From assembly GCF_003946275.1 (NCBI RefSeq), contig NZ_RHNQ01000007.1, positions 1-53,057 of the forward strand: 53,057 nt of DNA. The letters run 5' to 3'. Below, in pieces: positions 32,137-51,137 of this stretch. The translations under genes and the position numbers were made by a program. Numbering within the stretch: position 1 is the first letter of the stretch; every line of letters begins with the position of its first letter. Source of the DNA: Loigolactobacillus backii. GTDB taxonomy: Bacteria; Bacillota; Bacilli; Lactobacillales; Lactobacillaceae. The notes below the pieces were generated by a model. That model worked only from the letters and a program-made list of their open reading frames with translations, was not told the origin of the DNA and did not search any database.

Positions 32137-33126
32137 CTATTCCACTGGATGTGTTGCCTGACCACCTTCGATAATCTTTTTGGCATCATCCAAACTAATA
32201 TCGACCATATTTTGAACCGCAACGTTAGTGTAAAAACCAATATGGGGCGTTAAAATCAAGTTAGGCATCTTCTGCAATTCAACAAATTGCTGATTTTTAA
32301 TCGTTTTACCAGTTAAATCAAAGTTATTAAATTCTTGCTCACCTTCAATTGCGTCAATCGCAACCCCAGCCAACTGCTTTTCTTTTAAAGCCGTAACTAA
32401 GGCCTTTGTATCGATCACTGGCCCACGAGAAGCATTAATCAAAACAGCACTAGGCTTCATTAACTGAAATTCCGCCGTACTTAATAAGTGTGTTGAGCTA
32501 GGATTTAAATCTGGATGCAAATCAACGACATCGGCCTTTTTTAATAGTGTTTCCTTATCAACGTAGGTCAAAACATCCTTTAAATCATCATTTTCAACCA
32601 GATCATTTGCCAGCACTGTGGCTCCTAAGGCGTGGAACAGTCGGGCAGCAGTTCCACCAATTCGGCCAGCACCAATAATACCGATTGTTAACGTGTGGAT
32701 TTCGTGGGCAATCAAACCGCCCCAACGGAAATCTTGGTGGGCGCCTCGAGCATCGAATAATTCTAGATTGCGAATTAAACGGAAAGTTTGGGCCAACGAA
32801 TATTCAGCGACAGAACGTGGTGAGTAAGCAGGAACATTGGTCACGATTAAATCATTAGCCTTGGCGGCCGGTAAATCAACCACGTCGTAACCGGCACTAC
32901 GTAAGCCAAGTTGTTTAATGCCGTATTCGTGTAACTTTTGGTAAACGACAGCACTGTCAATTGCCGCGTGCTGCACAATAACAACACCATCGTAGCCTTG
33001 CGCTAATCCAACTGTTTGACTGCTCATGTCTTCCTGGTTGGTGGCCACAGTGACTTGGTTGCGTTTGGCCCAAGCATTAATTGCGGGCATCTCATCATCA
33101 CGAACGCTGTACATTAATATTTTCAT
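32137..33126 (-). CDS. D-2-hydroxyacid dehydrogenase (D-lactate dehydrogenase family)
   Basis: An NAD-dependent reductase of 2-oxo acids to D-2-hydroxy acids, 329 aa. The Rossmann motif GAGRIG is at 152-157. The catalytic Arg234 (NASRGPVID), Glu261 (IDAIEGE) and His295 (LTPHIGFYT) triad is complete. In lactobacilli such enzymes reduce pyruvate or bulkier acids such as phenylpyruvate and 2-oxoisocaproate. Placement 17 nt after an aminotransferase under an aromatic leader peptide favours aromatic or branched 2-oxo acids, but this is inference. AGGAG precedes ATG. Confidence 0.9.
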   Translation of the reverse strand: MKILMYSVRDDEMPAINAWAKRNQVTVATNQEDMSSQTVGLAQGYDGVVIVQHAAIDSAVVYQKLHEYGIKQLGLRSAGYDVVDLPAAKANDLIVTNVPAYSPRSVAEYSLAQTFRLIRNLELFDARGAHQDFRWGGLIAHEIHTLTIGIIGAGRIGGTAARLFHALGATVLANDLVENDDLKDVLTYVDKETLLKKADVVDLHPDLNPSSTHLLSTAEFQLMKPSAVLINASRGPVIDTKALVTALKEKQLAGVAIDAIEGEQEFNNFDLTGKTIKNQQFVELQKMPNLILTPHIGFYTNVAVQNMVDISLDDAKKIIEGGQATHPVE

Positions 33127-33143: not shown

Positions 33144-34328
33144 TTACGATTTCTGGACCAAATAATTTTTTAAGCGTTTAACAGCTTCTTTAAGGTCAGT
33201 CAGACTAGCTGCATAGCTAATGCGAACGTAGCCTTCACCACCGCCACCGAAGCTAGCACCAGGAATCAAGGCCACCTTGGCCTCCTGGGCTAATTCATAA
33301 CAGCATTTAAAGCTGTCCTGAGGCAAACTTGCCGGAATTTTAACAAATAGGTAAAAAGCCCCTTCTGGTTTAACGCACTCAAAGCCAATCGCCTGTAAGG
33401 CGGTGAATAAGTAATCGCGGCGTTTTTCATAAGCCTGTTTCATCTCTTGACCGTCATTTAAGCCGTTTTTAAAAGCCTCTAAGGCCGCATCTTGTGCAAC
33501 CGTGGTCGCGCTAGTGATCGCAAATTGATGCACTTTGCCAATCTCCTGAGCAATAGCTGCTGGTGCCGCCAAGACACCTATCCGCCAGCCAGTCATCGCG
33601 TGGGATTTAGACACACCATTGAGTAAAATCGTTTGTTCCGGCAAAAGCTCAGCCATGGAAACGTGCGGCTCTCCATAAGTTAATTCACTGTAGATTTCAT
33701 CACATAATACAAAAACATTGTATTGACGTAATACTTTGGCCAACGCCTCCAAGTCCTTGCGCCGATAAGTTACACCCGTTGGATTGGTTGGGTAATTTAG
33801 TACAAGCACCTTGGCCCGGGGATGATCTTTTAACGTTGTTGCCAATAGCTCTGGCGATAAAACAAAATGATTAGCCGACGTATCCATAAAGACTGGCACA
33901 CCTTGGTTCACAGTTGTATCTGGTATGTAAAGTGGAAAAATTGGTGTTGGAATTAATACTTCGTCACCTTTTGAAACAATCGTTGTTAGCGCCGAAAAAA
34001 TGGCCTCAGTGGTCCCCGCCGTCACCAAAATTTCGCTGGCCGGATCATAATGCACGTTGTACTTTGTTGCTAAGTAATTTGCCGTGGCCTGCCGAACCTC
34101 AATTTTCCCCGCTGAATTAGTGTAATGACTGTCATTTTGTTCAATAGCACTAACACCGGCGGCCTTAATGTGTTCTGGTGTTGTAAAGTCTGGTTCCCCC
34201 AACGTTAGTTTTAAAATTCCCGGGATCTTCGAAATATCTTGGTTGAATTTTAAAATTGAGGAGGGCTTAACCGCTGCCACCTCAGGCTTTAACAGTTTGA
34301 CTAGTGCACTTAACTTATCTTCTTGCAT
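33144..34328 (-). CDS. Class I/II aminotransferase (PatA/AraT-like)
   Basis: A PLP enzyme of 394 aa. GEPDFTTPEHIK (44-55), NYPTNPTGV, Asp210 in CDEIYSEL and the PLP lysine Lys241 in VSKSHAMTGWRIG are all present, and an Arg for the substrate carboxylate occurs near the C-terminus (GEGYVRISYA). The start at 34326-34328 (MQEDKLSAL) is preferred because AGGAAGG lies 9 nt upstream; two earlier in-frame ATGs have poor spacing. The 240-nt leader contains an aromatic-rich peptide and attenuator, so the substrate is probably Phe/Tyr/Trp and their 2-oxo acids. Co-transcribed with the D-2-hydroxyacid dehydrogenase. Confidence 0.9.
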   Translation of the reverse strand: MQEDKLSALVKLLKPEVAAVKPSSILKFNQDISKIPGILKLTLGEPDFTTPEHIKAAGVSAIEQNDSHYTNSAGKIEVRQATANYLATKYNVHYDPASEILVTAGTTEAIFSALTTIVSKGDEVLIPTPIFPLYIPDTTVNQGVPVFMDTSANHFVLSPELLATTLKDHPRAKVLVLNYPTNPTGVTYRRKDLEALAKVLRQYNVFVLCDEIYSELTYGEPHVSMAELLPEQTILLNGVSKSHAMTGWRIGVLAAPAAIAQEIGKVHQFAITSATTVAQDAALEAFKNGLNDGQEMKQAYEKRRDYLFTALQAIGFECVKPEGAFYLFVKIPASLPQDSFKCCYELAQEAKVALIPGASFGGGGEGYVRISYAASLTDLKEAVKRLKNYLVQKS

Positions 34329-34362: not shown

Positions 34363-34395
34363 AAAAAAACCACAGCGACTAATTCCGCTGTGGTT
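34363..34395 (-). terminator. Attenuator terminator in the aminotransferase leader
   Basis: In the minus-strand transcript AACCACAGCG (34386-34395) pairs perfectly with CGCTGTGGTT (34368-34377) around a GAATTAGT-type loop. A run of T follows (34363-34369). It sits 35 nt before the aminotransferase start codon, so it must be conditional. Confidence 0.88.
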
Positions 34396-34489
34396 GATAA
34401 TTGGCTAATTCATTAAGGTAGCCCACACAGCGGAAATTAATTCTGCACTATGTGGTCAAAACACGTTAAAACACTTCTGGCCGCATAGT
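34381..34489 (-). promoter_or_regulatory. Antiterminator and competing pairings of the attenuator
   Basis: Transcript order runs from high to low coordinates. Segment 0 is ACTATGCGG (34481-34489, right after the leader stop). Segment 1 is CCACATAGT (34447-34455). Segment 2 is TTCCGCTGTGTGG (about 34423-34435). Segment 3 is CCACAGCGGAA (about 34383-34393) and segment 4 is CGCTGTGG. 0:1 pairs 8 of 9, 1:2 pairs 8 bp (CCACATAG with CTGTGTGG), 2:3 pairs 10 bp and 3:4 is the terminator. A ribosome at the leader stop would cover segment 0, letting 1:2 and 3:4 form. A ribosome stalled on the aromatic codons would leave 0:1 and 2:3 to form. The model is inference from complementarity. Confidence 0.75.
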
Positions 34490-34546
34490 CTACGCGAAAT
34501 ACCAAAAGTAAAAGTAGTTATTTAATTGTACATTGATTAGCTGCAT
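34490..34546 (-). CDS. Aromatic-rich leader peptide
   Basis: An 18-codon ORF, MQLINVQLNNYFYFWYFA, ending in TAG. AAGGAG (34555-34560) lies 8 nt before ATG. Seven consecutive codons are Tyr, Phe, Tyr, Phe, Trp, Tyr, Phe, a pattern not expected by chance and characteristic of attenuation leader peptides. It lies directly between a consensus promoter and an RNA segment with mutually exclusive hairpins, upstream of an aminotransferase. Its role would be to sense charged Tyr-, Phe- and Trp-tRNA. Confidence 0.85.
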   Translation of the reverse strand: MQLINVQLNNYFYFWYFA

Positions 34547-34575
34547 ATTAAAAACTCCTTAAATTAACTATCTTA

Positions 34576-34604
34576 ATTCTAACCTTACTATTAGATTACG
34601 TCAA
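34576..34604 (-). promoter_or_regulatory. Promoter of the attenuated aminotransferase operon
   Basis: On the minus strand TTGACG (34599-34604) is followed after 17 nt by TAGAAT (34576-34581). The predicted start is near 34569, giving a 20-nt 5' UTR to the leader peptide. Confidence 0.8.
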
Positions 34605-50904: not shown

Positions 50905-51137
50905 TAACAAAAAAAGTCCCCGACCAAGTCAAAAACTTGATCAGGGACGAAATTTTTCCGCGTTACCACCCAAAGTTATAGCTACTGCTATCACTCTTTC
51001 ATTTGTATCGAAATGACCCGTGACATCCGCGTAAAAAGTGTAATTCGCGTTGTAACTTCGGTTAGTTTTCAGCCACCACTAACTTTCTGAACGATTAGTT
51101 ACGCCACTACTGTACTTCTTATGTCCGTTATGAAATT
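50905..51137 (-). promoter_or_regulatory. T-box riboswitch leader of tyrS
   Basis: The minus-strand transcript carries the T-box sequence GGGTGGTAACGCGG (50959-50972). A terminator follows (GTCCCTGATCAAGT pairing with ACTTGGTCGGGGAC, then TTTTTTT, 50909-50948), together with stem I structures upstream. Uncharged tRNA-Tyr is expected to bind and promote read-through. TAC triplets in the stem I region (e.g. within GAAGTTACAACG) are candidate specifier codons; I could not fix which. Confidence 0.9.

Follow-up and report, generated by a model that had tools for sequence, protein, structure and literature searches.

The attenuators of the enterobacterial trp, pheA, and his operons combine a leader open reading frame (ORF) that carries codons of the pathway with alternative RNA helices and an intrinsic terminator. 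The element described here, from Loigolactobacillus backii (Lactobacillaceae), resembles two of them in part: one of its helices (A:B) bears sensing codons, like the 1:2 pause hairpin of trp, and its chain of segments recalls the A-F chain of his. It differs from all of them by the mixture of Tyr, Phe, and Trp codons in its leader, by a segment (segment 0) that lies right after the stop codon and opens a five-segment chain, longer in other genera, and by its occurrence in a lineage known for T-boxes.

Closer in phylogenetic terms, the his and ilv-leu leader peptides of Firmicutes are examples of attenuation in low-GC Gram-positives (PMC2965389, PMC9413887, PMC5794164). They carry His or branched-chain codons, unlike the aromatic codons studied here, and the accessible parts of these three articles do not describe aromatic leaders in Lactobacillaceae. 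Our literature search, which left most subscription journals outside its scope, returned no description of aromatic leader peptides in this family and only one paper on the "trpB motif". This motif, RF04312 in Rfam, was put forward as a strong candidate for a riboswitch; it counts more than 900 representatives, most of them located before an ABC transporter (PMC11109978). Its authors did not exclude a classic attenuator, and a leader ORF is not mentioned in the part of the article available to us (Narunsky et al. 2024, PMC11109978).

Organization of the leader region

We analyzed a stretch of 53,057 nucleotides (contig NZ_RHNQ01000007.1 of assembly GCF_003946275.1), hereafter the window. An earlier note, made from the letters alone, had placed in it a promoter, a Shine-Dalgarno (SD) sequence, an ORF of 18 codons, several complementary segments, and a terminator. 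All are present, at the positions it gave. The element spans 34604-34363 on the minus strand, as do all its parts, and precedes an aminotransferase and 2-hydroxyacid dehydrogenase gene pair. The promoter TTGACG-17-TAGAAT (34576..34604) agrees with the consensus at 10 of 12 positions. Since the scanned region holds four promoter-like sites, for 2.9 expected from shuffles, it is by itself weak proof. Downstream lie the SD sequence AAGGAG (34555..34560) and the leader ORF MQLINVQLNNYFYFWYFA (34490..34546), which starts with ATG at 34546-34544, stops with TAG at 34492-34490, and has seven aromatic codons in an unbroken row (YFYFWYF).

The RNA segments start within the ORF. Segment A (ACTTTTGG, 34502..34509) lies in the Tyr-Phe-Trp codons and pairs with segment B (CCAGAAGT, 34473..34480). 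Segment 0 (ACTATGCGG, 34481..34489), immediately 3' of the stop codon, pairs with segment 1 (CCACATAGT, 34447..34455) with one mismatch among nine positions. Segment 1 can alternatively pair with segment 2 (34423..34433), segment 2 with segment 3 (34385..34394), and segment 3, which is the 5' arm of the terminator, with segment 4 (CGCTGTGGT, 34377-34369). The latter and a T-run form the 3' part of the intrinsic terminator (34363..34377), which has the most pairs among the four terminator-like sites of the scan. The T-run ends 34 nt upstream of the aminotransferase ATG at 34328. The fold of the leader region beats 200 of 200 dinucleotide shuffles (z -4.34). The locus has three of the features expected of a leader-peptide attenuator: a short ORF with an SD sequence between promoter and first gene (its translation being inferred), a run of codons for amino acids of the pathway, in this case the seven aromatic ones, and mutually exclusive antiterminator and terminator helices, for which covariation is the evidence and 2:3 the weakest case.

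The presumed regulated gene encodes a class I/II aminotransferase (33144..34328, minus strand; PF00155), whose match to the PRK07309 model is slightly below the cut-off (559.7 bits vs. 576). The D-2-hydroxyacid dehydrogenase gene, identified by model searches (32137..33126, minus strand), starts 17 nt 3' of it and presumably belongs to the same operon. Of 12 loci read by eye, 11 have a gene of this type after that of the aminotransferase, L124 being the exception. We infer that the aminotransferase uses aromatic substrates; with a hydroxyacid dehydrogenase, such an enzyme is the expected route to aromatic lactates, e.g. phenyllactate.

Conservation of the leader ORF

A close orthologue of the aminotransferase was found in only 2 of 8 genomes of the genus, that of the window included (100% and 97%), and 18 paralogous loci (35-55% identity) have no convincing leader. 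At the family level, the aminotransferase has a match at E 1e-130 or better in 156 of 301 genomes. Conservation of the short ORF in orthologous leaders had been set by the earlier note as a test of its reading, and the ORF passes it. We fetched the 30 closest loci: 29 have an aromatic-rich leader preceded by an SD sequence, and in the thirtieth (L040) a contig end 149 nt before the gene cuts the leader region off. Among 40 further loci taken down the same list, 27 have the leader and 13 lack it. Finally, 18 of 80 loci from named organisms carry it, 17 of them with an SD match; this set overlaps the others (for example, L109 and L031 have identical sequences). The leader-bearing named loci belong to Agrilactobacillus, Lactiplantibacillus, an uncultured Lactobacillus, Secundilactobacillus, Sporolactobacillus, Liquorilactobacillus, Lentilactobacillus, Pediococcus, Bombilactobacillus, and Weissella. 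The leaders commonly end, before the stop codon, in NSRFYFWFFQY, TSFYFWYFR, RYFYFWFFHKHL, or NNFYYYFGFFR.

Among the 80, the streptococcal and enterococcal loci showed no leader of the window's form; a short ORF containing four aromatic residues is present at two S. suis loci. A search of the plasmid collection returned nothing. In Bifidobacterium (L122 and L125), a short ORF MQGTRFTYWWHGFDL lies upstream of a related aminotransferase gene, followed in L122 by a hydroxyacid-dehydrogenase-like gene.

Covariation of the alternative helices

Terminators were called in 79 aminotransferase leaders, of which 75 were usable: 39 with a short chain of segments as in the window (31 non-redundant) and 36 with a longer chain (23 non-redundant). 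Covariation was assessed on the 31 short-chain leaders, the window included, leaving the 36 longer ones out. Every helix shows compensatory changes across this set. The fraction of paired cells is 96.2% in A:B (4 of 7 pairs changed on both sides), 94.5% in 0:1 (6 of 9), 96.3% in 1:2 (5 of 8), 84.4% in 2:3 (5 of 11), and 96.0% in 3:4 (10 of 10). For each helix, the observed percentage was reached by none of 500 shuffles and by none of six slid versions, the latter being at most 66% paired vs. 84-96% for the real helices. Two caveats apply: the number of doubly changed pairs of 2:3 was equalled by 72 of 500 shuffles, and the shuffles ignore the relatedness among leaders. The four pairings proposed beforehand (0:1, 1:2, 2:3, and 3:4) all covary, 2:3 the least.

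A fifth helix, A:B, had not been noticed. It joins the Phe-Trp codons to the segment behind the stop codon, CTTTTGG pairing with CCAAAAG. Where the Trp codon TGG is replaced by CGG (Arg: L057, L203, L206) or TTG (Leu: L217), segment B has the matching base, and the same is true where the Phe codon TTT has become TTC (L219, L222, L223, L242). L057, L203, and the L219 group retain one or two other mismatches in A:B. Exchanges of TAT and TTT (Tyr/Phe) in the leaders of transketolase genes (tkt) are also compensated in B. The longer chain is found in Lactiplantibacillus, Liquorilactobacillus, Sporolactobacillus, Weissella, Bombilactobacillus, and the tkt leaders, and by eye its parity looks the same as that of the short chain.

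A proposed ribosome-dependent switch

We propose the following mechanism, in which translation of the leader, ribosome stalling, the order of co-transcriptional folding, and the physiological response are inferred. Without a ribosome on the aromatic codons, A:B would cover segment 0, helices 1:2 and 3:4 would form, and transcription would terminate. When charged Tyr or Phe tRNA (perhaps also Trp tRNA) is scarce, a ribosome stalled on the aromatic codons would open A:B and free segment 0, so that 0:1 would form, segment 2 would capture segment 3, and the aminotransferase operon would be transcribed in the absence of a terminator. When charged tRNA is plentiful, the ribosome would reach the stop codon and cover segment 0 itself, resulting again in 1:2, 3:4, and termination.

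To model the nascent RNA, we folded the part beyond a ribosome edge, which was placed 12 nt downstream of the first A-site base. With the ribosome upstream or absent, A:B is predicted to form in the window (0.99). The probability of 0:1 is 0.00-0.01 when the A-site is 10-13 codons before the stop, 0.75-0.89 from N9 to Y15, 0.38 on F16, and 0 on A17 and on the stop codon, where neither A:B nor 0:1 forms; the zero at the stop is a consequence of the masking rule. In 30 of the 31 leaders, this probability rises above 0.5 at an aromatic codon and does not reach 0.2 at the stop. Averaged over the 31, it amounts to 0.80-0.89 at positions nine to five codons upstream of the stop, and at positions eight to five 87-97% of the codons are aromatic. 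With a ribosome placed 11-13 codons upstream of the stop, the average has fallen only to 0.61; in these models, A:B clearly hides segment 0 in the window, but not as a general rule. Within the limits of such predictions, the strongest mechanistic argument for the window is how well codon position fits helix availability, a fit that is shown here along with the leader ORF, the helices, and their covariation.

The later steps are less well resolved by folding. For complete transcripts at equilibrium, the terminator is favored at nearly every ribosome position and falls below 0.5 at any position in only 2 of 75 aminotransferase leaders. If the ribosome sits on W14 or Y15, the terminator of the window drops to about 0.3 even in this full-length fold, and the near-identical leader of a sister species (L002) has no such dip (0.89 and 0.91). 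We regard this approach as uninformative on the switch, the terminator being dominant. As long as segment 4 is unmade, helix 2:3 of the window has a probability of 0.82 at every ribosome position, so the decision would have to be kinetic; no kinetic simulation was made. The test of segment 3 on nascent RNA gave 0.76 in both states for the window. Over the aminotransferase leaders, mean segment-3 sequestration moves only slightly, from 0.59 to 0.68 (a shift above 0.2 in 17 of 75 leaders vs. 11% of 300 shuffled versions). The segment-3 and equilibrium counts omit 7 of 151 leaders in which the terminator finder failed (L055, L238, L239, L241, L293, L298, and L300).

In the absence of expression or ribosome data, we consider it very probable that the element senses aromatic aminoacyl-tRNA through ribosome-mediated transcription attenuation. 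The earlier note had suggested attenuation, and both the conservation of the ORF in orthologous leaders and the covariation of the pairings it named support this. Its idea that the leader reads all three aromatic amino acids stands only in part: as signals, Tyr and Phe are favored over Trp, which is absent from some leaders and whose codon is partly held by the A:B pairing. Trp is missing from the last 12 residues in 14 of the 79 aminotransferase leaders (a set with some duplicate genomes); 13 truly lack it, and L211 has a Trp further upstream.

Related leaders before other genes

We searched the family with a model built from all 31 leaders, at a threshold of E 0.01 or better, and obtained matches in 78 of 151 genomes, training sequences included. 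Among 40 further matches that were read, 26 have leaders with aromatic runs (20 identified by script and 6 by eye), six have runs of Ile, Val, or Ser codons, and eight are without a clear leader. The 26 aromatic leaders stand before genes for transketolase, shikimate dehydrogenase, DAHP synthase, aminotransferases, hydroxyacid dehydrogenase, a membrane protein, and TrpX-like binding proteins. Downstream genes were named by eye unless a model was run. The transketolase of L089, the DAHP synthase of L356, the shikimate dehydrogenase of L345, and the serC of L360 score over the model cut-off, and the TrpX-like protein of L353 is below it (340.9 vs. 390). The genome of the window itself has a second aromatic leader, ending in QLNNPYYYYWFFN before the stop codon, upstream of tkt, aroE-like, and aroF-like genes (L089, G000:C86:19948-20183, minus strand).

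The membrane protein gene occurs under an aromatic leader or beside the aminotransferase gene (L337, L338, L339, L351; L119, L124). The copies in L119 and L124 are PTS_EIIC_2 proteins (PF13303), and no NCBIfam model matched the one in L337. We see this protein as a candidate aromatic amino acid carrier. In L353, L358, L373, L306, and L198, TrpX-like binding proteins have Tyr/Phe-rich instead of Trp leaders and are possible Tyr/Phe transporters. The Ile- or Val-codon runs were found at weak matches of the aromatic model (L346, L349, L355, L366, L374). The remaining one, L360 (G093:C43:85748-85882), has the leader MTNLLTNIVTSSSWSTDLSV before serC and is possibly a serine-sensing form. That Ile-, Val-, and Ser-codon leaders lie in register with the aromatic model suggests that the sensors are exchangeable.

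These leaders bear on the alternative that survives best, although we judge it unlikely, namely that the peptide itself (QLN..FYFWFF) arrests the ribosome in response to some small molecule, such as an aromatic amino acid in free form, and not because charged tRNA is lacking. Constraint on the peptide does exist, since the order of the aromatic residues is conserved and an [LVMI]N pair lies upstream of the sensing codons in 67 of 79 aminotransferase leaders, for 19.5 expected from shuffled peptides. Yet F, Y, and W replace one another, and R, L, or G also occur in their place, with the RNA pairing largely kept, and related leaders carry Trp, His, Ile, Val, or Ser codons before similar RNA, which fits codon sensing. 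The pair is also found in 53 of 72 RF04312 leaders, for 23.2 expected from shuffled peptides, and in Trp and aromatic leaders alike this LN-type pair lies mostly within CAATTGAAT.

Relation to the trpB motif

The best-scoring Rfam match of the element in the window is RF04312. The model matches weakly but end to end, from segment 1 onward, at 31.8 bits for a gathering score of 59, and the element is absent from the genome matches of this model at E 0.001. Thus, the score rules out filing it under RF04312: it works like this motif and is not a member. Nor was there an RF04312 match in 20 other aminotransferase leaders. The other weak Rfam matches of the element are Spot 42 and Esr41, which are enterobacterial sRNAs.

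At E 0.001, 137 of 246 Lactobacillales genomes have RF04312 matches, as do 12 of 250 sampled genomes of Bacilli. We studied 78 loci (14 from the Bacilli sample, 24 from Lactobacillales, and 40 hand-picked from the Lactobacillales matches across scores and genera) and searched them for an ORF with ATG and SD that ends between -60 and +15 of the motif and has a Trp within its last ten residues. Such a Trp-codon leader, typically ending in SWQNWRR, was found at 69 of the 78 loci, vs. 10 of 1560 shuffles and 0 of 78 on the reverse strand. Among the nine missed, L257, L287, and L296 have the Trp with an unusual start or SD, L198 and L306 have aromatic leaders, and L196 (54.5 bits) has a His-run leader (HHHH) before a hisZ-like gene (218.3 bits vs. 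a cut-off of 271.65). The last three (L200, L294, L305) resemble plain terminators behind other genes, and we do not regard them as true RF04312, but kept them in the denominator of 78. Downstream genes over their model cut-off are trpX (L191, L197) and trpB (L252). L197 lies in the same genome as the window (G000:C57:17845-17943, minus strand), where an RF04312-like element below cut-off (48.2 bits) with a leader ending in NRQFWQSQQ precedes trpX.

Like the window, RF04312 has, in this order, a leader ORF, segment 0 at the stop, hairpin 1:2, antiterminator 2:3, and terminator 3:4; unlike it, its leaders mostly have Trp codons. Its helices 0:1, 1:2, 2:3, and 3:4 covary over 56 non-redundant leaders, with the reservations that the number of pair types of 0:1 was reached by 104 of 500 shuffles and that one slid version of 2:3 equals the covariation score, not the pairing. 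Mean segment-3 sequestration is 0.47 at the stop and 0.75 at the Trp codons, with a shift above 0.2 in 47 of 69 leaders vs. 6.9% of 276 shuffled versions. From these comparisons of sequences, we conclude that RF04312 in Lactobacillales is a putative Trp leader-peptide attenuator; Fusobacteria and Clostridia were outside our sample. The aromatic model overlaps 5 of 31 right-strand RF04312 loci and begins in the leader only at L306, which has an aromatic leader. This is the only locus in register, making the model weak proof of a shared origin, and a common origin of the two kinds of leaders is plausible, not proved.

These results also leave very little room in the window for a riboswitch with direct ligand binding, the kind initially proposed for the similar trpB motif. 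In favor of such a reading, the hairpin and terminator are conserved, and RF04312 was published as a strong riboswitch candidate, as far as the accessible part of that article goes (PMC11109978). Against this stand the Trp-codon ORFs of RF04312, far in excess of the shuffles, and the aromatic ORFs before aminotransferases, whose codons agree with the pathway downstream.

Independent detection and T-boxes in the genome

One may still ask if an unselected aromatic ORF simply happens to lie beside an ordinary terminator. Aromatic patterns do run elsewhere without a leader-like setting, with any match in 50 of 301 genomes; we set aside the matches lacking such a setting. We built a covariance model from 27 leaders, none of them from the genus of the window; besides the window, the first alignment had 30 leaders, and three of these were omitted as well. 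This model finds 34519-34360 (minus strand) in the window at E 7.8e-12, the next best match being at 0.14. In the whole genome, it recovers the element at E 3.7e-10 and the tkt leader on contig C86 at E 1.5e-5; no aromatic leader was seen at its four weaker matches (E 0.011 to 0.82). Since the model derives from other genera, the E value of 7.8e-12 means that the element is more than chance, and with conservation and covariation pointing the same way a fortuitous arrangement is scarcely credible.

The earlier note had remarked that lactobacilli mostly sense amino acids with T-boxes, including at tyrS in the window. This fits the genome, where we found 39 T-box matches, 14 of them above the Rfam cut-off; one just short of it (91.9 bits vs. 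93) lies at 50940-51133 of the window (minus strand), directly before a tyrS-like gene. By eye, T-boxes precede tyrS-, trpS-, and tyrA-like genes, hence both types of sensors share the aromatic genes. Even though T-boxes (RF00230) are the usual sensor of the lineage, we can practically discard one as the sensor here, as none of the 39 matches falls on the leader of the window, the tkt leader (C86), or the trpX leader (C57).

A possible modular class of attenuators

Beyond the attenuator of the window, we lean slightly towards the view that Lactobacillales have one modular class of attenuators, in which a domino chain started at the stop codon is kept and the sensing codons are exchanged: Trp in RF04312, which would hence be no riboswitch, Tyr/Phe/Trp, His, and probably Ile, Val, and Ser. 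The window would hold the aromatic form, within an aromatic regulon that includes the aminotransferase, tkt-aroE-aroF, DAHP synthase, and transporters. The wider interest of its leader is this regulon and the tie to an orphan motif: the riboswitch candidate RF04312 would gain a testable identity, and uncharacterized transporter genes would be tied to aromatic amino acids. Aromatic lactates such as phenyllactate are generally known to be relevant to fermented food and the gut. For the family, the finding would add a widespread aromatic leader-peptide system to a lineage thought to rely on T-boxes.
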